Of a stretch of 49,188 bases of DNA, positions 3,937 to 26,737 are shown piece after piece. The position numbers and the translations under genes were made by a program. The number at the start of each line of letters is the position of its first letter. Positions within the stretch are counted from its first letter, which is position 1. The DNA comes from Halobacteriales archaeon QS_8_69_73. Its GTDB lineage: Archaea; Halobacteriota; Halobacteria; Halobacteriales; Haloarculaceae. Where the stretch lies: the NCBI GenBank assembly GCA_003022945.1, contig PXRZ01000062.1:1-49188 (forward strand). The letters run 5' to 3'. The notes beneath the pieces were generated by a model. It saw only the letters and a program-made list of their open reading frames with translations, searched no databases and was not told the DNA's origin.

Positions 3937-4106
3937 GGGCCGACATCCGGGTCTGTTCGGCGTGGGCGACCGAACACGACGCGCCCGTCTACACCCTCGG
4001 CGAGGTCTGTCCGGAGTGCGGCGCCGACGCGGAGAACAGTGCCCCCGCGCCGTACAACCCCGAAGACCCCTACGGCGAGTACCGCCGACAAGCCAAACGC
4101 GAGTGA
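3933..4106 (+). CDS. nop10: H/ACA RNP component Nop10
   Basis: The 57-residue product starts [20 protein letters not shown] and contains [11 protein letters not shown] and a [13 protein letters not shown] tail, which identify Nop10 of the H/ACA pseudouridylation complex (with Cbf5, Gar1 and L7Ae). Usual archaeal Nop10 has two CxxC pairs; here only the second is present and the first is reduced to one Cys with a nearby His, a change I recall from other haloarchaea. The ATG overlaps the eif2a stop (GAATGA), as expected for this conserved gene pair. Confidence 0.95.
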
Positions 4107-16708: not shown

Positions 16709-17560
16709 ATGGTGCTACGCACGCGCGGCCTCACCAAGCGCTTCGGCGGCGTCAGCGCGGTCGACGGCGTCGACTTCGAACTCGGCGAGGAGTGCTGTTC
16801 ACTTATCGGCCCCAACGGCGCCGGCAAGACGACGTTCTTCGACCTGCTGACGGGCGTGCTGTCGCCGTCGGCCGGTAGCGTCGAGTACCGCGGCGACGAC
16901 GGCTACGTCGACATCACCGACCGCGCGCCCCACGGGACGGCGCAGGCGGGCATCCACCGCTCCTATCAGATCACCAATCTCTTCGCGACGTCGACGGTGC
17001 TGGAGAACGTCCGGGTCGCCGCCCAGGCCCACGGCGACGACTCCTGGCGGGCCTGGCGCAACGTCGACGCCTTCCCGGAGTACGAGCGGGAGGCCCGGCG
17101 CGTCCTCGACCGCGTCGGGCTGGCCGACGAGGCCGACGCCGTCGCCGAGACGCTCAGCCACGGCGAGAAGCGCAACCTCGAGGTCGCCGTCGCGCTGGCC
17201 GGCGACCCGGACGTGCTGCTGCTCGACGAGCCGACGGCCGGCGTCTCCAGCGACGGCATCGACGAGCTGACCGGGCTCGTCAACGACATCGCCGACGATC
17301 ACGCCGTCCTGCTCGTCGAGCACAACATGGAGGTCGTCATGGAGGTGTCGGACCGCATCGCGGTGCTCAGCCAGGGGTCGCTCATCGCCGACGACGACCC
17401 GCGGGCGGTCCGCAACAACGAGCGCGTCCAGGACGCCTACCTCGGCGGCTACGAGCGCGAGGCCGGCGTCTCCAGCGGTAGCGGCAGCAGCGACGGCGGC
17501 AGCGACGGCGGCAGCAGCGACGGTAGCGACAGCGACAGCGGCGGAGGTGAGCCCGCGTGA
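16709..17560 (+). CDS. livG: ABC importer ATPase, LivG type
   Basis: The 283-residue product has Walker A GPNGAGKTTFFD, a variant signature (LSHGEKRNLEVAVAL), Walker B VLLLDEPTAG and the H-loop LLVEHNMEVVMEV. The long insert after Walker A and SYQITNLFATSTVLENV are typical of LivG. The last 35 residues are a low-complexity tail of Ser, Gly and Asp (SSGSGSSDGG and repeats), not expected in the family. The start is ATG at 16709, one base after the binding-protein stop. The stop overlaps the GTG of livF. Confidence 0.93.
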   Translation: MVLRTRGLTKRFGGVSAVDGVDFELGEECCSLIGPNGAGKTTFFDLLTGVLSPSAGSVEYRGDDGYVDITDRAPHGTAQAGIHRSYQITNLFATSTVLENVRVAAQAHGDDSWRAWRNVDAFPEYEREARRVLDRVGLADEADAVAETLSHGEKRNLEVAVALAGDPDVLLLDEPTAGVSSDGIDELTGLVNDIADDHAVLLVEHNMEVVMEVSDRIAVLSQGSLIADDDPRAVRNNERVQDAYLGGYEREAGVSSGSGSSDGGSDGGSSDGSDSDSGGGEPA

Positions 17561-18255
17561 GCCTGCTTGAAGTCGACGACGTCCACAGCTACTACGGCGA
17601 GAGCCACGTCCTGCGGGGCGTCTCGCTGTCGGTCGACCGCGGGGAGACGGTCGCGCTCATCGGCCGCAACGGCGTCGGCAAGACGACGACGCTGCGGTCG
17701 GTGCTCCAGCTGACGCCGCCGCGCCGCGGGACGGTCACCTACGACGGCACGGACGTCACCGGCCGGCCGACCCACGAGGTCGCGCGGATGGGCATCGGCT
17801 GGGTGCCGGAGAACCGGCGGATGTTCTCGCATCTGACCGTTGACGAGAACGTCCGCATCGCGACGCCGCCGGACGGCGACGTCGGGGCGGCCTTCGAGAC
17901 GGTCTACGGCGCCTTTCCGGAGCTCGAAGACCACCGCGACCGCGAGGCGGGCGATCTCTCGGGCGGCCAACAGCAGATGGTCGCCATCGCCCGCGGGCTG
18001 GTCGGGGGAAACGAGACGCTGCTGGTCGACGAGCCGAGCGAGGGGCTGGCGCCGCAGATCGTCGAGGCCGTCGCCGACGCGCTGTCGGCGGTTGCCGCCG
18101 AGGCGACGGTGCTGCTCGTCGAGCAGAACTTCCCGCTGGCGATGGACCTCGCCGACCGGTTCTACCTGCTCGACCAGGGGACGGTCGTCGCGTCAGGCTC
18201 GACCGAGGGCGTCACCCGCGAGGACGAGACGATACGGAGGTATCTGTCGGCGTGA
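17557..18255 (+). CDS. livF: ABC importer ATPase, LivF type
   Basis: The 232-residue product has Walker A GRNGVGKTTTLRS, the signature LSGGQQQMVAIARGL, Walker B LLVDEPSEGLAPQI and H-loop LLVEQNFPLAM. IGWVPENRRMFSHLTVDENV is the characteristic LivF segment. It starts with GTG inside the livG stop (GTGA) and its own stop overlaps the livH GTG in the same way. It pairs with LivG to energise the LivH-LivM channel. Confidence 0.94.
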   Translation: MSLLEVDDVHSYYGESHVLRGVSLSVDRGETVALIGRNGVGKTTTLRSVLQLTPPRRGTVTYDGTDVTGRPTHEVARMGIGWVPENRRMFSHLTVDENVRIATPPDGDVGAAFETVYGAFPELEDHRDREAGDLSGGQQQMVAIARGLVGGNETLLVDEPSEGLAPQIVEAVADALSAVAAEATVLLVEQNFPLAMDLADRFYLLDQGTVVASGSTEGVTREDETIRRYLSA

Positions 18256-19244
18256 CGGCCGTCGCTGCGGTCGAGACCGTGCCGCTGTTCGCGCCCGCCG
18301 ACGTCGGCATCAGGGCCGTCTCGAAGGCCGCCCTCTACGTCGTCATCGCCAGCGGGCTCAGTCTCATCTTCGGGCTGATGGGCGTGTTGAACTTCGCCCA
18401 CGGCTCGCTGACGATGATCGGCGCCTACCTCGGCGGCGCCGTCATGGTCGCGACGGTGTCGGCCGGCACCGGCGGAGTCGCGCGGTTCGTCCTGTTCTTC
18501 CTGGCGGCGGCGGCCGTCTTCGGGCTGCTGACCGGCGTCGGCGCCGCCGTCGAGGTGGCGCTCATCCGGCCCATCTACGACCGGGAGCCGCTGTTTCAGA
18601 TCCTGCTGACCTTCGGGCTGGTGCTGGTGCTGGACGAGGCGGCCCGCATCGTCGTCGAACTCGCCGGCCTGCAGCCGCAGACGGAGTGGCAGGACGCCAT
18701 CGGCACCGCCCCGGCGTTTCTCGGCGCCCGCTACGACATCCTCGGCGTCGATACCCGGTGGGGGCTCTACGCCTTCGAGGCGCTCGTCGGACTGACCGTC
18801 GTCGTCGCCATCCTGCTGTTCCTCGGCGAGACGCGGTACGGCCTCTACATCCGCGCCGGCAGCGAGGACGCCGAGATGGCCCAGGCGCTCGGAATCGACA
18901 TCCGGCGAGCGTTCACGGTCGTCTTCGGCGTCGGCGCCGGCCTGGCCGGGCTGGCGGGCGTCCTGCTGATGTGGGACCCCCGGTTCGGCGCCAGCGTCCC
19001 GCTGAGCGTCGAGACGCTGCTCGTCGCGTTCATCGTCGTCATCGTCGGCGGCCTCGGCTCGTTCAAGGGAACCGTCGTCGCCGGCGTCCTCGTCGGCGTC
19101 GTCGACGCGCTGATGTCGTGGCTGTTCATCAACGTCGTCGACTTCCCCGGTCTGCCGGAGCTGGTGCTGTTCACCGTCCTCGTGACGGTGCTCGTCGTCC
19201 GCCCGAAGGGGCTGCTCGGCGTCGCGGAGGTGGGCGGCCATTAG
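18252..19244 (+). CDS. livH: ABC importer permease, LivH type
   Basis: The 330-residue hydrophobic protein contains the LivH pattern GLSLIFGLMGVLNFAHGSLTM near the N-terminus and GSEDAEMAQALGIDIRR in the cytoplasmic coupling region, with about eight membrane segments. GTG at 18252 overlaps the livF stop. VVIVGGLGSFKGTVVAGVLV near the C-terminus is typical. It forms the translocation pore together with LivM. The stop TAG at 19242-19244 overlaps the reading frame of livM, whose start is abnormal. Confidence 0.93.
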   Translation: MTAVAAVETVPLFAPADVGIRAVSKAALYVVIASGLSLIFGLMGVLNFAHGSLTMIGAYLGGAVMVATVSAGTGGVARFVLFFLAAAAVFGLLTGVGAAVEVALIRPIYDREPLFQILLTFGLVLVLDEAARIVVELAGLQPQTEWQDAIGTAPAFLGARYDILGVDTRWGLYAFEALVGLTVVVAILLFLGETRYGLYIRAGSEDAEMAQALGIDIRRAFTVVFGVGAGLAGLAGVLLMWDPRFGASVPLSVETLLVAFIVVIVGGLGSFKGTVVAGVLVGVVDALMSWLFINVVDFPGLPELVLFTVLVTVLVVRPKGLLGVAEVGGH

Positions 19245-20778
19245 CGACGACGGGCCGGCGGGCGCGAACGACGACCGCGACCCGACGGGCAACGACGGGC
19301 CAGCGGACGGGCCGGCGAACGGCGACGGACTAGCGGACGGGCCGACGAGCGACGACTGGCCGACCGGCGCGAGCGGCGACCGCGAGCCGACGAGCGACGA
19401 CGGGCCGGACAGTCCCGGACAGACGAGCGACGATGGGCCGGACGGCTCCGGGCCGACGGGCAACGACGGGCCGACGAGCGACGAGAGCCGCGGCTACCTC
19501 GCGACCCACGCCGCACACATCGCCGTCGTCGGGGTCCTGGTCGCCTACCCGCTGCTGTACCGGGTCCTCGTCAGTCTCTCGGTCGGCGTCCCCGGGACGG
19601 GCGTCCCGCTCGGACAGTTGCTCGACGTGGTTCTGCCGCGGGTGACGACGATGATCGTCGTCCTCTACGTCGGGCTGTTCGCGATGAGCTTCGACTTCGT
19701 CAGCGGCTACACCGGCTACCTCTCGTTCGGCCACGCGATGTTCTACGGTATCGGCGCGTACTTCGTGGTTCTGGCCGGCTCCGGGAAGGTGCCCGGGCTG
19801 GCGGCGGAGACGCACTTCATGCTGCTACTGGTGCTCGGCGCGGTGCTCGCCGCCCTCGTCGCGCTGGCGGTCGGCGCCGTCTCCTTCCGGCTGACGGGCG
19901 TTTACTTCGCGATGGTGACGCTCGGCTTCGCCGAGGTGGCCCACGTCTTCGTCCGCAACTGGGACTACGTCGGCTCGAACCCCCGCGACGGCGCCGGCGT
20001 CGTCGGCCGCGAGGGCTTCGCCGTCGGCTACCCGGGGCTGCCCGACTTCCTGGACGCACTCCCCGGCTTCCTGACCGACCCCCGGGAGGTCCGGCTCGGC
20101 CGCCTCGCCGGCGACGGCGTCGAGAACCTCCTCGGGACGGGGCTGGACCTCGAGCCGGCGGTCGTCTCCTACTACGCCATCGGCGCCGTCGCGCTGCTGT
20201 GTTACACCGCGATGCAGCGGATCATCCACTCGCCGTTCGGCCGGGTGATGGTCGCCATCCGCGAGAACGAGGAGCGCGCCGAGGCCGTCGGCTACGACAC
20301 CTTCCGGTACAAGCTCGGCGCCTTCGGAATCAGCGGCTTCTTCGCCGCCATTGCCGGCGGGCTGTTCGCGGGCTACCGGCGGTCGGTCGCCCCGGAGAAC
20401 ACCTTCGACCTCTTCGTCACCGCCGACGCACTGCTGGCGGCCATCATCGGCGGCTTCGGGACGCTGGCCGGCCCGTTGTTCGGCCACCTCTTCCACGAGA
20501 CAATCGCAGGCGTCCTCTCGACGGAGTCCCACGGCCTCGCACGGGTCCTCCGGGACGAGTTGCCCGGCGGCGTCCTCTCGGCCGGCGTCGGCGAGTTCAC
20601 CGTCCTCGAGTTCATCAACGTCTTCGTCGACGGCCGGGCCGACCTCTATCTCGGGCTGGTGTTCGTCCTCTTCGTTCTCTACGTGCCGCGGGGCATCCTC
20701 GGCACGCTCCGAAACCGGCTGGGCGGCACCGTCGCCGAGAAACTACCCGAGCGGCTCGACCGCTACCGCCGTCGGTAG
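19240..20778 (+). CDS. livM: ABC importer permease, LivM type, with repeat-rich N-terminus and unclear start
   Basis: The core is a normal LivM permease: FDFVSGYTGYLSFGHAMFYG, LTGVYFAMVTLGFAEVAHVF, VMVAIRENEERAEAVGYDTF and IIGGFGTLAGPLFGHL. In this frame the DNA is open from upstream of 19201, but there is no ATG, GTG or TTG before TTG at 19618. Starting at 19618 would remove the first membrane segment (HIAVVGVLVAYPLLYRVLV). An ATT at 19240, overlapping the livH TAG, is the only candidate start of coupled type and would add a segment of about 85 residues of repeats (SDDGP, TGNDGP, TSDDGP). Either a rare ATT start is used or the real start has been altered. The coordinates give this maximal frame. 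Confidence 0.85.
   Translation: MSDDGPAGANDDRDPTGNDGPADGPANGDGLADGPTSDDWPTGASGDREPTSDDGPDSPGQTSDDGPDGSGPTGNDGPTSDESRGYLATHAAHIAVVGVLVAYPLLYRVLVSLSVGVPGTGVPLGQLLDVVLPRVTTMIVVLYVGLFAMSFDFVSGYTGYLSFGHAMFYGIGAYFVVLAGSGKVPGLAAETHFMLLLVLGAVLAALVALAVGAVSFRLTGVYFAMVTLGFAEVAHVFVRNWDYVGSNPRDGAGVVGREGFAVGYPGLPDFLDALPGFLTDPREVRLGRLAGDGVENLLGTGLDLEPAVVSYYAIGAVALLCYTAMQRIIHSPFGRVMVAIRENEERAEAVGYDTFRYKLGAFGISGFFAAIAGGLFAGYRRSVAPENTFDLFVTADALLAAIIGGFGTLAGPLFGHLFHETIAGVLSTESHGLARVLRDELPGGVLSAGVGEFTVLEFINVFVDGRADLYLGLVFVLFVLYVPRGILGTLRNRLGGTVAEKLPERLDRYRRR
19243..19490 (+). repeat. Imperfect repeats encoding Ser/Asp/Gly/Pro units at the livM 5' end
   Basis: The unit AGCGACGACGGGCC and variants (AACGACGGGCC, GCGGACGGGCC) recur about a dozen times in register, giving SDDGP, NDGP and ADGP motifs. 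The tract lies between the livH stop and the first LivM membrane segment. Confidence 0.75.
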
Positions 20779-21449: not shown

Positions 21450-21962
21450 TCAGTACAGGTCGGTCACGAACGGCCCGAGCGCGCCGGCGACGGCCGTCGA
21501 CAGCGCCTCCGTGCGGTCGACCCGGCCGCCGGTCAGGGCCCCGACCGCGCCGCGGCCGCGCGCGACGCCCGACTCGCCGAGGCGGTCGTCCATCACGGGC
21601 CCGAGTTCCTCGCCGTCCCGGACGCGGTCGGCGACCGCCGCCGGCAGTCGGACCGCCGGCCCCGCCCCACGCTCGAGGCGGTCGCCGTCGGTGACGGTGG
21701 CCCACATCACCAGGTAGAGTCCGGGTGCGGCGTCGACGTCGGCGACGCCGCCCTCGATGCCGACGCCGAGGTCGTAGCCGCCGGCCGCGAGGGCCCGCTC
21801 GGCGCGGGTCTCGGCGCCGGCGACCGTTTCGGCCCGGCCGGTCGGCTGTTCGGATACGCCCGAGTCGACGGCGACGGCCTCGACCGTCGCGTCCGGCCGC
21901 TCGAGCGCCGCCACCACCGCCCGCCGCTTGACCGGGTTCTCGCTTCCGACACCGACGTCCAT
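21450..21962 (-). CDS. Inosine/xanthosine triphosphatase, DUF84 family
   Basis: The 170-residue product from ATG 21962 begins MDVGVGSENPVKRRAVVAAL and contains SGVSEQPTGRAETVAGAETR, YDLGVGIEGGV and a C-terminal GAVGALTGGRVDRTEAL. These are the motifs of the YjjX/DUF84 family, which hydrolyses non-canonical ITP and XTP to keep them out of nucleic acids. The phosphate-binding SENPVK and the GIEGGV metal region are intact. The 37 codons upstream in the open frame are unlike the family, so ATG 21962 is chosen. It is divergent from the rhodopsin gene, 110 bp away. Confidence 0.9.
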   Translation of the reverse strand: MDVGVGSENPVKRRAVVAALERPDATVEAVAVDSGVSEQPTGRAETVAGAETRAERALAAGGYDLGVGIEGGVADVDAAPGLYLVMWATVTDGDRLERGAGPAVRLPAAVADRVRDGEELGPVMDDRLGESGVARGRGAVGALTGGRVDRTEALSTAVAGALGPFVTDLY

Positions 21963-22072: not shown

Positions 22073-22834
22073 ATGACGTCGGTCCTCGGTACCGAAGAGA
22101 TGTGGCTGTGGCTCGGGACGGCCGGCATGCTCGCGGGCACGCTCTACTTCCTCGTCGACGGCTGGGGCGTCGAGGACCGGCGGCGCCGGGAGTTCTATGT
22201 CGTGATACTGTTCGCTTCCGCCACGGCTTCCGTCAACTACCTGGCGATGGCGCTCGGCTTCGGCATCACCACACTCGAGTTCGGCGGTCGTCCAGCCACC
22301 GTCTACTGGGCTCGGTACACGGACTGGATCTTCACGACGCCGCTGCTGTTCATCGCGCTCGGGCTGCTTGCGGGGGCGACCCGCCGCCAGTTGGCGCTGC
22401 TGGTCGGCCTCGACGGGCTAATGGTGGCCACGGGCGTACTGGCGACGCTCTCGACGGGGACCGGCGCCTACGTCCCCGTCGGCGGGCCGTTCCTCTGGTG
22501 GGGGGTGTCGACGGCGATGCTGCTGTCGCTGCTGTACTTCCTGTTCGGCCCGCTGACGGCACGGACGGACGCCAAGCCGGCCGAACTGCGGTCGACGTTC
22601 GTGACGCTGCGGAACCTCGTCGCGGTCGTCTGGCTCTGCTACCCGGTCTGGTGGCTCCTCGGCACGAACGGCGCCGGCCTGACCGGATCCTACGTCGAGA
22701 CCGCGGGCTTTATGACGCTCGACCTGATCGCCAAGCTTGCGTTCGGATACGTCCTGCTGTCGAGCGACGAGGCCCTCGACGCCGCCGGACGGGCGGCCGA
22801 CGCGGCGTCGGGCGCGAGCTACCCCGCCGACTGA
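22073..22834 (+). CDS. bop: Microbial rhodopsin (bacteriorhodopsin family) with Ala at the proton-donor site
   Basis: The 253-residue protein has seven membrane helices. Helix C reads ARYTDWIFTTPLLFIALG: Arg81, Asp84 and Thr88 match bR Arg82, Asp85 and Thr89, but the bR Asp96 position is Ala95. Helix G holds Asp217 and the retinal Lys221 (TLDLIAKLAFGYV), matching bR Asp212 and Lys216. Of the proton-release pair, Glu209 (bR Glu204) is kept but bR Glu194 is Asn199 (LLGTNGAG). Asp114 (bR Asp115), Tyr56 and Trp85 are present. The protein therefore binds retinal with an Asp counter-ion but lacks the normal cytoplasmic donor. It could be a slow or altered pump, or a sensor; no transducer gene is adjacent. 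It precedes crtY, brp and bat, and a Bat-type UAS lies upstream. Confidence 0.9.
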   Translation: MTSVLGTEEMWLWLGTAGMLAGTLYFLVDGWGVEDRRRREFYVVILFASATASVNYLAMALGFGITTLEFGGRPATVYWARYTDWIFTTPLLFIALGLLAGATRRQLALLVGLDGLMVATGVLATLSTGTGAYVPVGGPFLWWGVSTAMLLSLLYFLFGPLTARTDAKPAELRSTFVTLRNLVAVVWLCYPVWWLLGTNGAGLTGSYVETAGFMTLDLIAKLAFGYVLLSSDEALDAAGRAADAASGASYPAD

Positions 22835-22927: not shown

Positions 22928-23737
22928 GTGGTGACCGGCCCCTCCTACCTCCAGTTCCACGTCGCGTTCATCGTGCCGGTGCTGTCGATGCTAACGGCGG
23001 CGGCGGTCGTCTCCCGGACGCGGACGACCCGCCGGACCGTCTGGTCGGTCGGCGGCCACGACTACTGGATCGGCGTCGCCGTCGTCACCCTGCTGGCGGT
23101 CGTCTACACGACGCCGTGGGACAACTACCTCATCGCGGAAGGGGTGTGGGGGTACGGCGACGGTCAGACGCTGGTCCGATTCGGGCTGGCGCCGCTCGGG
23201 GAGTACCTCTTTTTCCTGCTGCAGCCGACCGTGACGGCGCTGTGGCTGGGTCAGCTGACGCTGCGGGACGGCTGGCCGACGCCGGACCCCCTCCGGGATG
23301 CCGGCGCCGTCGCCTCTTCTCGGGAGCTCGTCGACCTCGCGGCGCTGTCGACCTGGCCGCGGCTGCTGGCCGGCGGCGCTGCCGCCGGGCTCGGCCTCCT
23401 CGGTGCCTGGCTGCTGACGTCGCTGCCGACGTTCTACCTCGGGGCCATCCTCGCCTGGAGCGCCCCCGTCCTGTTCATCCAGTGGGTTGTCGGCGCGCCG
23501 CAGTTGTGGCACCAGCGCCGCGTCGTCGCCCTCGGGGTCGCCGTCCCCACCGTCTATCTGTGGGTCGCCGACCGGGTCGCCATCGCGACCGGCATCTGGC
23601 ACATCTCCGAGGCCCACACCGTCGGGCTAGAGATCGTCGGACTGCCGGTCGAGGAGGCGCTGTTTTTCGCCGTGACGAACCTCTTCGTCGTCCAGGGACT
23701 GGTGCTGTTCCAGTGGGTCGTCGAACGATGGGGGTGA
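22928..23737 (+). CDS. crtY: Lycopene beta-cyclase, fused CrtYc-CrtYd type
   Basis: The 269-residue membrane protein has two homologous halves, each with about three helices. The first contains TTPWDNYLIAEGVWGY and LGEYLFFLLQPTVT; the second contains GIWHISEAHTVGLEIVGLPVEEALFFAVTN. The PxEE/GEYxFF motifs define the haloarchaeal and actinobacterial heterodimer-type lycopene cyclase, here in one chain. It closes lycopene ends to beta-carotene, the precursor of retinal. The start is GTG at 22928 or 22931. Its TGA overlaps the brp ATG. The gene lies 93 bp after the rhodopsin and is probably in the same regulatory unit. Confidence 0.92.
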   Translation: MVTGPSYLQFHVAFIVPVLSMLTAAAVVSRTRTTRRTVWSVGGHDYWIGVAVVTLLAVVYTTPWDNYLIAEGVWGYGDGQTLVRFGLAPLGEYLFFLLQPTVTALWLGQLTLRDGWPTPDPLRDAGAVASSRELVDLAALSTWPRLLAGGAAAGLGLLGAWLLTSLPTFYLGAILAWSAPVLFIQWVVGAPQLWHQRRVVALGVAVPTVYLWVADRVAIATGIWHISEAHTVGLEIVGLPVEEALFFAVTNLFVVQGLVLFQWVVERWG

Positions 23738-24735
23738 GAACCCCCGACGCCGCGCGAGCCGCCTTCGACCGGGTCGCCACCCGTCCGGCCTGGGCCGCCT
23801 GCGGGCTCGTCGTCGCCCTGTCGGTCGCGTCGGCGCTGGCCGGCGTCGCCCCCAGGCCGGCGCTGCGGTATCTACCGCTGGCGGCCAGCGTGGTCGTCCT
23901 CGGGTTGCCCCACGGCGCGGTCGATTACCTCGTCCCGGCCCGGCTCGGCGACCGGTCGCTGCCGACGTCGATGGCGCTGGTCGGCGCCGTCTACCTGCTG
24001 TTGGGCGGCGCCTACGCCGCGCTGTGGCTGGTCGCGCCGGGCCCGGCGGCGGCGTTTTTCATCGCGATGACGTGGTTCCACTGGGGCCAGGGCGACGTCC
24101 ACGCGCTGGTGGCCTTCGTCGGCGCCGACCACCTCCGGCCGCGGCCGCTGCGGGCGGCGACGCTGTTCGTCCGCGGCGGCCTGCCGATGTTCGTCCCGCT
24201 GCTGGCGTTTCCCGGCCGGTACCGCGAGGTCGTCGCGGCGTGGATCGAGCTGTTCGGGTCGGACCTGACGGCGACGTGGCTGTTCGCGCCGACGACGCGG
24301 CTCGTCGGCGGCGGCACCTTTCTCGCGGTCACGGTGGCGACGCTTCTGGCCGGCCGGCTCGTCGCCGATGACCGCCGCGGCTGGCGGATCGACGCCGGCG
24401 AGACCGCGCTGCTGTGGACGCTGTTCCTGACGGTGCCGCCGCTGGCCGCGGTGGGCGTTTACTTCTGCGTGTGGCACTCCCTGCGGCACGTCCTTCGGGT
24501 GGTCGCCGCCGACGGGACGACGGCCGTCCGGGCCGGCCTCGGCCGGTTCGCCCGCGAGGCCGCACCGCTGACCGTGCTGGCGCTGGTCTTGCTCGTCGGC
24601 TTCGGCGCGGTCGTGCCGGCCTCGCCGTCGACGCCCGCGGAGCTGTCGGGGCTGTATCTGGTGTTCATCGCCGTGCTCACGCTGCCGCACGTCGCCGTCG
24701 TCACGTGGATGGACCGCCGCGAGGGCGTCTGGTAA
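23728..24735 (+). CDS. brp: Brp/Blh-family beta-carotene 15,15'-dioxygenase
   Basis: The 335-residue protein has about eight membrane helices and the conserved histidines of the Brp/Blh family: VLGLPHGAVDYLVP, TWFHWGQGDVHAL, CVWHSLRHVLRV and LTLPHVAVVTWMD. These bind the iron that cleaves beta-carotene into two retinal molecules. Its ATG overlaps the crtY stop, so the last two steps of retinal synthesis are coupled. It ends 18 bp before the convergent bat gene. All the histidines usually found are visible. Confidence 0.92.
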   Translation: MGVRTPDAARAAFDRVATRPAWAACGLVVALSVASALAGVAPRPALRYLPLAASVVVLGLPHGAVDYLVPARLGDRSLPTSMALVGAVYLLLGGAYAALWLVAPGPAAAFFIAMTWFHWGQGDVHALVAFVGADHLRPRPLRAATLFVRGGLPMFVPLLAFPGRYREVVAAWIELFGSDLTATWLFAPTTRLVGGGTFLAVTVATLLAGRLVADDRRGWRIDAGETALLWTLFLTVPPLAAVGVYFCVWHSLRHVLRVVAADGTTAVRAGLGRFAREAAPLTVLALVLLVGFGAVVPASPSTPAELSGLYLVFIAVLTLPHVAVVTWMDRREGVW

Positions 24736-24753: not shown

Positions 24754-26737
24754 TCAACCGTGCGAGACCGCCCGCTCGAAGAACGCCTCCGTCAGCTTCC
24801 GCTCGGCGGCCCGGAGGTGCTGGTGGTACGTCGAGCGGTCGATATCCATCGACTCGGCCAGCTCCTCGCCGGTGACCGAGCGGTTCCACTCGTAGTAGCC
24901 GCTGACGTGGGCCTTCCGCAGCGCCGTCAGCTGGCGCTCGGTGAGCCGCTTCTCGAGGTCGGCGATGAACCCCCGCTTCGTCTGCGGCGGCCGCTCCCGC
25001 TCGCGGTGAGCGGCCAGCTCCGTCTCCGGGTACCGCTCCTTGATCAGCCCGACGATGGCCCGGATCTCGCTTTCCTTCGGGAGCTCGATGGACAGTTCGG
25101 CGGTGCCGTTGTCGGCCTCGATCGACTGCACCTTGACGCCGCGTTCCGCCAGAATCGCCGTGATGGAGTCGTCGGTGACCCCGAACTCCCACAGCGTCGT
25201 CTCGTCGTAGTCGTGAATGGGCGTCGCCGACCGGATGTTCGCGGAGTCGTCGACGATGTCCCGGACGGCCTCGGCGTCGGCGTCGGTGTCGAAGAACATC
25301 AGCACCGAGCCGTCGTCGCGGTAGACCGACCCCTGGAACTCCAGCGAACAGCCGGCCGTCGCCGAGACGTCGACGAAAAAGAGATCGGCGTCGGTCGTCT
25401 CGAGGGCGAGTTCGGTGACGCTATCGGAGGCGAGAATGCGACCCCGCTCGAGGGCGTTGATCGCCGTCCCGGCCGCCCGGCCCAGCGCCTCCAGGACGAC
25501 GGCCTCGTGTTCGTTCAGCGCGTCGCCGTCCGTCGTGTACAGCGTCAGCACGCCGTACGTCGTCTCGCCGTACGACAGCGGTACCGCGGCGATGCCGGAC
25601 AGCGCTTCGGCGTCGAGCCACGGCATCCCGTCGGCCGCCGCCGCGAGGGCGTCGTCGTCCCTGACGACTTCAAGTTCGCCCATCTCGTAGGCGGTCACGG
25701 TCGGGTCGGGCTCCGACGTCTCGTAGGCCGTCACGGTCGGACCGGGCTCCGACGTCGAGAGGTCGACCGTCAGGGCGTCGTCCGGCGGGGCCCACTCGCC
25801 GGCGTGCGTGCTGGCGACGAGCGTCTCCGTGGAGAAGTCGGGGACGCCGACCCAGCCGAACTCGTAGGTGTCGACGACCGCCACCCGGTCGCAGACGGCG
25901 GCCTCGATTTCCGACCGCGAGCCGGCCTGCACCAGCTCCCGGGTGACGTCCTGCAGGAGACCGTCGATGCGGACCAGCAGGTGCTCCAGTTCGGCCTCGC
26001 GGTGTCTGGCCTCCATTTCCGCCTGCTTCCGGTTGGTGATGTCGGTCTGGAAGCCGACGAAGTTGGTCACGTCCTCGGGGCCGTGGACCGGCGCGAGGTC
26101 GACCCGGTTCCAGAACGGCTCCCCGTCGGCCCGGTAGTTCAGCAGCTCGACGGACACCGGCTCGCCTTGGTCGACGGCCTCCCGCATCGCGTCGATGGCC
26201 TCCTGGTCGGAGTTCTGCCCCTGGAGGAACCGGCAGTTGCGGCCGACCGACTCCGCCTTGTCGTAGCCCGTCAGCCGCTCGAAGGCGTCGTTGATGTATA
26301 TCATCGGGTTGTCGGGCCTGTTCGGGTCGGTGATGGTGATGCCGACCGGCGCCTCGTCGATGGCCGACCGCCGCCTCGACGCGGTCGGTCAGCAGCGACC
26401 CGACTTCGGGGTCCGACGCCGGGACGAACTCCGAGACGTCGGCGGCGACGGCCCGGCTGGCGACCCCGCCGTCGTCCGGCTCCGCCAGCAGGACGACCGG
26501 CAGCGACGGCGCCGACTCCCGGACGGCCTCGAGGAACGCGAGCCCGTCGGTGGCCTCGTCGTGGGTGGCGACGATGCAGTCGACGTCGGAGCCGACGTCG
26601 CCGGCGTCCGGGATCCCGTCCGCGGTGGTCACCGAGAGGCCGTCCTGCGCGCCCAGCGCGGACCGCGCCGTCTGCCACCGGCCGGGCCGGTCGGTAACGA
26701 ACAGTACGCGTGCCGCCGGACCCATCATTTCCATCAT
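24754..26737 (-). pseudogene. bat: Bacterioopsin activator Bat, split by a frameshift
   Basis: From ATG 26737 the first 120 residues form a degenerate receiver-like domain (ARVLFVTDRPGRWQTARSAL, SLPVVLLAEPDD) that breaks off at about 26365. A second frame then continues without loss of the conserved segment: a PAS domain with the LOV-like sequence GRNCRFLQGQNSD, a PAC region (FVGFQTDITNRKQAE), a GAF domain (GIAAVPLSYGETTYGVLTLY), the Bat-specific domain and the HTH_10 (RLTERQLTALRKAHVSGYYE, EELAESMDIDRSTYHQHLR). One base removed near 26362 would join the frames, but the inter-domain linker is also shorter than usual. The GRNCRFLQG cysteine would allow a flavin adduct. From 26304 the rest could still be made as a PAS-GAF-HTH protein. 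A 12-residue tandem repeat (SEPGPTVTAYET/SEPDPTVTAYEM) lies in the GAF region. Confidence 0.85.

Follow-up and report, generated by a model that had tools for sequence, protein, structure and literature searches.

The rhodopsin gene of the window (the whole 49,188-nt contig analysed here, part of a 2.63-Mb draft genome, G000, that is 76% complete) encodes a protein that has lost the cytoplasmic proton donor of bacteriorhodopsin (bR), Asp96, together with the donor's hydrogen-bond partner Thr46 and the proton-release residue Glu194. On phylogenetic placement it is a cruxrhodopsin-type bacteriorhodopsin by descent, and donor-less proteins of the same clade were found in four of the 20 genomes of the genus that were searched. 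We favour, with moderate confidence, a reading drawn from the sequence and from analogy with published mutants, namely that the protein would be a slow-cycling, M-accumulating pigment, weakly pumping or serving as a low-flux switch, and not a receptor coupled to an Htr transducer.

Residues, carriers and locus

The features of the locus, by position in the window, are as follows.

17557-20778, + strand: liv-type branched-chain amino-acid ABC transporter genes; synteny kept in G010 and G005
21453..21962, - strand: DUF84 NTPase gene, divergent neighbour (PF01931, 1.7e-46); shared by the four carriers, though truncated in L057 (G018), where the contig ends
22025..22034, + strand: upstream box ACCAGTTGGG, of the type ACYAGTTKGG, candidate Bat-type activator site (11 upstream regions aligned)
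22073..22834, + strand: donor-less cruxrhodopsin-type bop gene, 253 amino acids (PF01036 Bac_rhodopsin, E 2.4e-56); four of the 20 genomes of the genus carry this clade
22205..22207, + strand: codon 45, Ile, at the site of bR Thr46, the hydrogen-bond partner of Asp96 (codon checked)
22355..22357, + strand: codon 95, Ala, where bR has its cytoplasmic proton donor Asp96 (aligned with deltarhodopsin and HmBRI; codon checked)
22667..22669, + strand: codon 199, Asn, at the site of bR Glu194, of the proton-release group (codon checked)
22733..22735, + strand: codon 221, Lys, retinal-binding, equivalent to bR Lys216 (alignments; codon checked)
22928..23737, + strand: crtY, lycopene cyclase (PF18916, 1.9e-06); syntenic in all four carriers
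23764..24735, + strand: brp, beta-carotene 15,15'-dioxygenase family (PF15461, 5.6e-77); syntenic in the four carriers
24754..26737, - strand: bat regulator (PAS-GAF-BAT-HTH_10), reading frame shifted by the loss of 89 nt near 26363-26365

Alignment to deltarhodopsin, HmBRI and the relatives agrees with the residues read in an earlier note on this DNA: Lys221, Asp84, Thr88, Arg81 and Asp217 are retained, Ala95 stands at bR Asp96 and Asn199 at Glu194, and these substitutions recur in related genomes. In bR numbering (given, for sites unmarked in the literature, as offsets from Asp85, Asp96 and Lys216), Arg82, Asp85, Thr89, Glu204 (Glu209 of the window protein), Asp212, Ala215 and Lys216 are all kept, and the protein thus has the retinal lysine, Asp85, Thr89, Arg82 and Asp212 of a cruxrhodopsin-type pigment. 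The earlier note had not listed the loss of Thr46 (Ile45 here), a residue that contacts protonated Asp96 in bR (PMC6120890). Across the three distinct sequences of the clade the donor and partner of a bR-type pump are replaced by Ala/Ala/Gly and Ile/Val/Val, respectively, and the release pair is broken at Glu194 (Asn/Asn/Gly) with Glu204 present. The AlphaFold2 model of the window protein (mean pLDDT 89.1) was matched by Foldseek to the structures 4jr8 and 4pxk with an rmsd of 1.5 Å and 57-59% identity.

The rarity of these losses was assessed by searching 146 genomes of the family (E 1e-60; 91 of 95 matches read) and 392 genomes of the order (E 1e-50; 60 matches from outside the family read), thresholds at which remoter bacteriorhodopsins are incompletely sampled. 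Removal of duplicates left 168 distinct regions. Seven T-S-A, one D-T-F and four D-T-Y sequences, all halorhodopsin- or sensory-type at 27-37% identity, were set aside along with one fragment lacking helix C, leaving 155 bacteriorhodopsin-type sequences with a readable helix C. The motif was D-T-D in 152 of these and the remaining three were the donor-less clade. Thr occupies the Thr46 site in 151 of the 152 D-T-D proteins, and Glu194 occurs together with Glu204 in 151. Conserved polar or ionisable sites, defined as D/E/K/R/H/C/Y/S/T common to more than 130 of the 152, numbered 28; T46, D96 and E194 are lost in all three donor-less sequences, Thr16 is altered in two of them, and 24 are unchanged in all three. 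By alignment, the three shared losses are the donor, the donor's partner and one member of the release pair. When N, Q and W were added (37 sites), Asn105 -> Arg also proved to be shared by all three. No description of a haloarchaeal bacteriorhodopsin naturally without Asp96 was recognised among the open-access papers searched by title and opening of the abstract.

The four carriers are G000, G010, G018 and G005, with A, A, A and G at the donor site, respectively, and the same locus. The rhodopsin of G010 (88% complete) is identical to the window protein; that of G018 is 91% identical, with Ala at the donor and Asn at Glu194; and that of G005 (99% complete, two contigs) is 74% identical, with Gly at both sites. 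As the four genomes represent one evolutionary event, the sequence counts are not counts of independent losses. A scan of genome contigs with two peptide patterns gave matches in PXRL01000021.1 (QS_4_69_225) and JAHENN010000007.1, which seem to correspond to G010 and G018, judging by contig number, coordinates of the match and identity. No relative of the window rhodopsin was found on viral contigs, and the nearest of eight records from a plasmid search (Haloplanus rallus, 64%) is D-T-D.

It is exceedingly improbable that the residue changes are a sequencing, binning or assembly error in a draft genome. The G000 assembly is indeed a fragmented draft with two frame-shifting deletions, in bat and in the halorhodopsin gene. 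However, identical changes are seen in other genomes, with two matching named records, and the D-T-G relative sits in the nearly complete, two-contig genome of G005. Error or chimera was therefore rejected as the source, since other genomes repeat the change.

In all four carriers the donor-less bop adjoins the DUF84 gene, crtY, brp, bat and a beta-propeller gene, and on the far side of DUF84 come the liv transporter genes in the three loci long enough to show them (L057 of G018 is too short). The earlier note called the bop-crtY-brp-bat locus complete. All four genes are present in that neighbourhood, but bat in the window is frame-shifted relative to G010, a deletion that may reflect either true loss of the regulator or a mistake in assembly; in G010, G018 and G005 bat reads through without a break. 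Each carrier genome has one full-length brp match, at the donor-less bop locus, and G018 has one partial match besides. We take the ACYAGTTKGG-type box upstream of bop to resemble a Bat activator site. In counts given without a chance control, the match is perfect at all four donor-less loci and at two of six D-T-D crux loci, and three further D-T-D crux loci have one mismatch; in the alignment of 11 upstream regions the box was not seen at the orphan G009 copy. Because donor-less and D-T-D loci share this candidate box, the donor-less bop may still be under bop-type control.

The second bop that the earlier note suggested searching for is present in all four carriers and is D-T-D; the surrounding 7-10 kb that was read contains no match to crtY, brp or bat. 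The third rhodopsin gene is a T-S-A halorhodopsin in G000 and G010; at about position 3996 of G000 contig C3 (L185) it is broken by a 118-nt frame-shifting deletion relative to the open, 294-aa gene of G010. Across the genus, in the genomes with a bop2-like gene (G000, G001, G005, G006, G010 and G018) the crux-type gene lacks the donor, survives as a remnant or was not found, and the genomes with a D-T-D crux-type gene (G002, G003, G009, G012, G016 and G017) yielded no bop2-like gene. A rule by which the crux-type gene is released once a second bop is present would suit the genus and fails beyond it, because Haloarcula marismortui has two working bacteriorhodopsins (PMC6450946) and several genomes of the order search have two or more matches; a second bop is kept here as a condition and not as a cause.

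Other rhodopsin loci were noted in passing. In G001, a crux-type bop remnant (L025, G001:C4:6577-7014) retains a crux-like start codon region and a still open frame but lacks most of the first hundred residues, the match beginning at query residue 101; its contig also carries a second, D-T-D bop at a distance of about 3 kb. Crux-type D-T-D proteins closely resembling one another are encoded at L009 (G009), L118 (G337) and L187 (Haloplanus rallus plasmid pMBLA003601), and this orphan bop, found in different families and once on a plasmid, seems from its sequence to move between haloarchaea. A divergent opsin homologue in G008 (L019, G008:C1:2284889-2285416) has Arg at the retinal Lys site and no RYxDW motif, resembling opsin-related proteins without the retinal lysine that have been described (PMC4915679).

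Descent, rate and selection

In a tree of 89 rows, the donor-less sequences group together with 100/100 support, their stem measuring 0.79 changes per column, and are nested within a 30-row crux-type clade (97/95) whose name rests on similarity to 4jr8 and 4pxk, structures outside the 89 rows. The nearest group consists mostly of the genus's ordinary crux-type proteins, by a weakly supported link (92/69), and the tree carried warnings of long outgroup branches and of the odd letter make-up of the G005 row. The window protein falls away from the sensory-type rows. Membership of the xenorhodopsins, which have no row in the tree, is unlikely given the firm placement inside the crux clade. Nor does the window's D-T-A motif match the T-S-A of halorhodopsins, and the seven distinct T-S-A sequences are 27-31% identical to the window protein.

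Conservation of bop was compared with that of crtY across 11 loci. Between D-T-D loci bop was the more conserved of the two in 21 of 21 pairs (e.g., 85.0% against 60.7%), whereas between donor-less and D-T-D loci it was the less conserved in 25 of 28 (e.g., 61.6% against 70.2%; two pairs equal, one reversed), pairs that are not independent since two of the four donor-less rows share one bop protein. By this contrast the speed-up lies in bop, on the donor-less branch. Within the clade the substitution pattern is constrained: the bop genes of G000 and G010 differ by 13 synonymous and no nonsynonymous changes, and dN/dS is 0.23 against G018 and 0.32 against G005 (0.23-0.34 within the clade), within the span seen for crtY, brp and the second bop of the same genomes. 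After its long stem branch, then, the donor-less bop is by this pattern under purifying selection. Partial relaxation of constraint is possible, because the only D-T-D pair compared, the two G009 copies, has a tighter dN/dS of 0.09 (dS 1.0).

The rival account at this point is that a redundant pump gene is drifting to decay under relaxed selection with the second bop doing the work. The D-T-D bop in every carrier, the crux-type remnant in G001 of the same genus, which shares its contig with an intact second bop about 3 kb away, and a dN/dS above that of the one D-T-D pair are all compatible with it. Nevertheless, we consider it very unlikely in view of the excess of synonymous change and the low ratios just given, the bop frame that is open in all four carriers and the 24 of 28 conserved polar sites left intact; a pseudogene was ruled out because of the substitution pattern. 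The earlier note's preference for altered function over decay is thereby strengthened, the clade being conserved in four genomes with dN/dS well below 1.

Expected photocycle and cellular role

We propose that a single loss event in a Natronomonas-like ancestry removed Asp96, Thr46 and Glu194. The sequence shows that the retinal-binding residue, the counterion pair, Arg82 and Glu204 were all retained. Light would still isomerise the retinal and pass the Schiff-base proton to Asp84, forming M. With donor and partner lost, reprotonation would have to come straight from the cytoplasm via a hydrophobic half channel, and the photocycle would therefore be slow (hundreds of milliseconds to seconds), pH-dependent and accelerated by azide. 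In bright light M would be expected to pile up, with pumping weak and voltage-limited, as in the published mutants. The second, D-T-D bacteriorhodopsin would probably carry out the bulk of light-driven pumping, leaving the donor-less protein as a low-flux, self-limiting pump or photoswitch with no role in Htr-coupled phototaxis. Loss of Glu194 should, as in bR mutants, delay proton release.

Slow reprotonation, which the earlier note had expected of a D-T-A protein, is supported by data on mutants of bR and deltarhodopsin. PMC3760879 gives the stationary current of bR D96N and D96G at 0 mV as about 3% of wild type, with a long-lived M and strong azide rescue, and the D104N mutant of the archaeal pump deltarhodopsin shows negligible pumping and slow, pH-dependent M decay (PMC8387761). 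Donor removal has been described as "effectively disabling H+ pumping" (PMC12538430). Single-residue mutants may nonetheless be a poor guide to a protein that has had time to compensate.

Such compensation could have left the protein an efficient pump, with a hydrated or remodelled cytoplasmic half channel or a stand-in residue such as Tyr226 or Cys189, an outcome we regard as unlikely. Y226 and C189 are newcomers fixed in the clade, as are changes close to the donor, along the chain or by depth, at bR 49 (Ala), 94 (Phe), 119 (Val) and 217 (Leu); those at 49 and 94, together with Ala or Gly at the donor itself, could create a route for water and hasten the uptake of protons. Bacterial D-T-G/S rhodopsins pump via a different donor (PMC10154332), and PMC8387761 refers to the open-channel bR mutant D96G/F171C/F219L as one in which M decays fast. 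In oocytes, however, that same triple mutant shows slow M decay and about 3% of wild-type pumping according to PMC3760879. Moreover, no replacement donor emerged: among residues common to the three sequences, no newly gained Asp, Glu, His or Lys falls within the membrane-embedded stretch of the cytoplasmic half (delimited by bR topology), and the new charges lie at helix ends or in loops. Clade-specific changes are enriched in the cytoplasmic half to a degree that depends on the cut-off (p 0.016, 0.066, 0.21 and 0.33), a weak spatial clustering that was not relied on.

The other account to be weighed makes the protein a light sensor, in which a slow cycle lets M persist long enough for a partner protein to read it, as in sensory rhodopsins. 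Slow photocycles are typical of sensors (PMC6450946) and sensory rhodopsins are likewise donor-less, the SRII-like protein of G007 having Phe at Asp96 and Leu at Thr46. Against this, PF00015 (MCP-signal), PF00672 (HAMP) and PF01584 (CheW) had no match in the genomes of G000, G010 and G005, which counts against an HtrM-like, HAMP-only partner as well, and these three carriers thus lack the cognate Htr of a sensory rhodopsin as far as the three models detect it. G018 has five MCP matches, one of them beside its own sensory-type rhodopsin gene on C300; the short HAMP model found only three proteins there, so the HAMP search can miss some. The absence of a transducer rests mainly on G005, because G000 and G010 are incomplete. 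At the locus itself, as the earlier note stated, no htr is adjacent, and the window has no gene-sized space between bop, crtY, brp and bat (the relatives' flanks were compared with the window's genes only).

The residues point the same way. The changes that turn bR into a sensor are A215T, P200T and V210Y (PMC3274258), whereas the window protein has Ala220, Gly205 and Thr215 at these sites, with Val at the V210 site in G005. With neither MCP, HAMP nor CheW in three carriers nor the SRII signalling residues, an Htr-type sensor is unlikely by sequence; the Htr-linked version was rejected for G005 and is unlikely for G000 and G010. A sensor of any kind reading M through a partner seems to us about as improbable as the efficient pump. 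Three of the four carriers, one of them 99% complete, yielded no match for the unlinked htr that the earlier note proposed to look for. The earlier note's signalling or middle-rhodopsin option, for a protein nested among the cruxrhodopsins, keeps little of its support.

The slow-cycling, weakly pumping or low-flux pigment thus stays the preferred reading. A further-reaching reading, doubtful yet somewhat more plausible than either the efficient pump or the sensor, is that natural selection turned a haloarchaeal proton pump into a long-M photoswitch that pumps barely or not at all and needs neither an Htr nor a chemotaxis system, the second bacteriorhodopsin having taken over energy conversion; such a switch would be either a photosensor read by a partner or a voltage-limited "starter" pump. 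If the photoswitch reading is true, the switch sits beside the only full-length brp, the retinal-forming gene, found in each carrier genome. More broadly, a protein that dropped donor, partner and half of the release pair and kept the photoswitch core offers a natural test of the cellular role of these residues, and a test case of a pump changing its role beside a second pump instead of becoming a classical sensory rhodopsin. Should long-lived M accumulate, nature would also have supplied an equivalent of the D96 mutants that have been considered for optical storage (PMC3760879).

Comparison with known systems

Among sensory pigments, sensory rhodopsin II (represented by the G007 protein) shares with the clade the absence of the donor and of Thr46, but the clade differs from it in Ala at A215, in its placement among crux-type proteins and in that searches of three of the four carriers found no Htr. 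The earlier note's suggested analogue was SRM of Haloarcula marismortui, which we take to be the "middle rhodopsin". SRM also has a slow photocycle (PMC6450946), but it has a downstream HtrM partner and no such gene was found at the donor-less locus.

Bacterial rhodopsins provide a second set of parallels. The D-T-G/D-T-S "mirror" proteorhodopsins and MpR-like rhodopsins resemble the clade in having no carboxyl donor at Asp96. The MpR-like clade includes two D-T-A sequences, and one of its members is described as a Na+/Li+ pump (PMC10154332). The same source gives the bacterial D-T-G pumps a His at the Thr46 site as the suggested donor, whereas this site is Ile45/Val/Val in the donor-less clade. 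The closest plasmid-borne rhodopsins of Pantoea and Methylobacterium are 31-34% identical.

The closest solved relatives are cruxrhodopsin-3 (4jr8, E 7.9e-84) and HmBRI, the bacteriorhodopsin I of Haloarcula marismortui (4pxk, E 1.4e-85). Cruxrhodopsin-3 has the donor of a D-T-D protein, a Thr at the Thr46 site and a Glu at the Glu194 site, and the donor-less clade lacks all three. In the 4pxk structure (D94N) the donor of a D-T-D protein was mutated by design, in contrast to the natural loss in the clade. Further parallels are the bR mutants D96N, D96G and D96A (2i1x, listed as D96A), which have the same donor loss; these were made in the laboratory, whereas the loss in the clade is natural, conserved and joined with those of Thr46 and Glu194.
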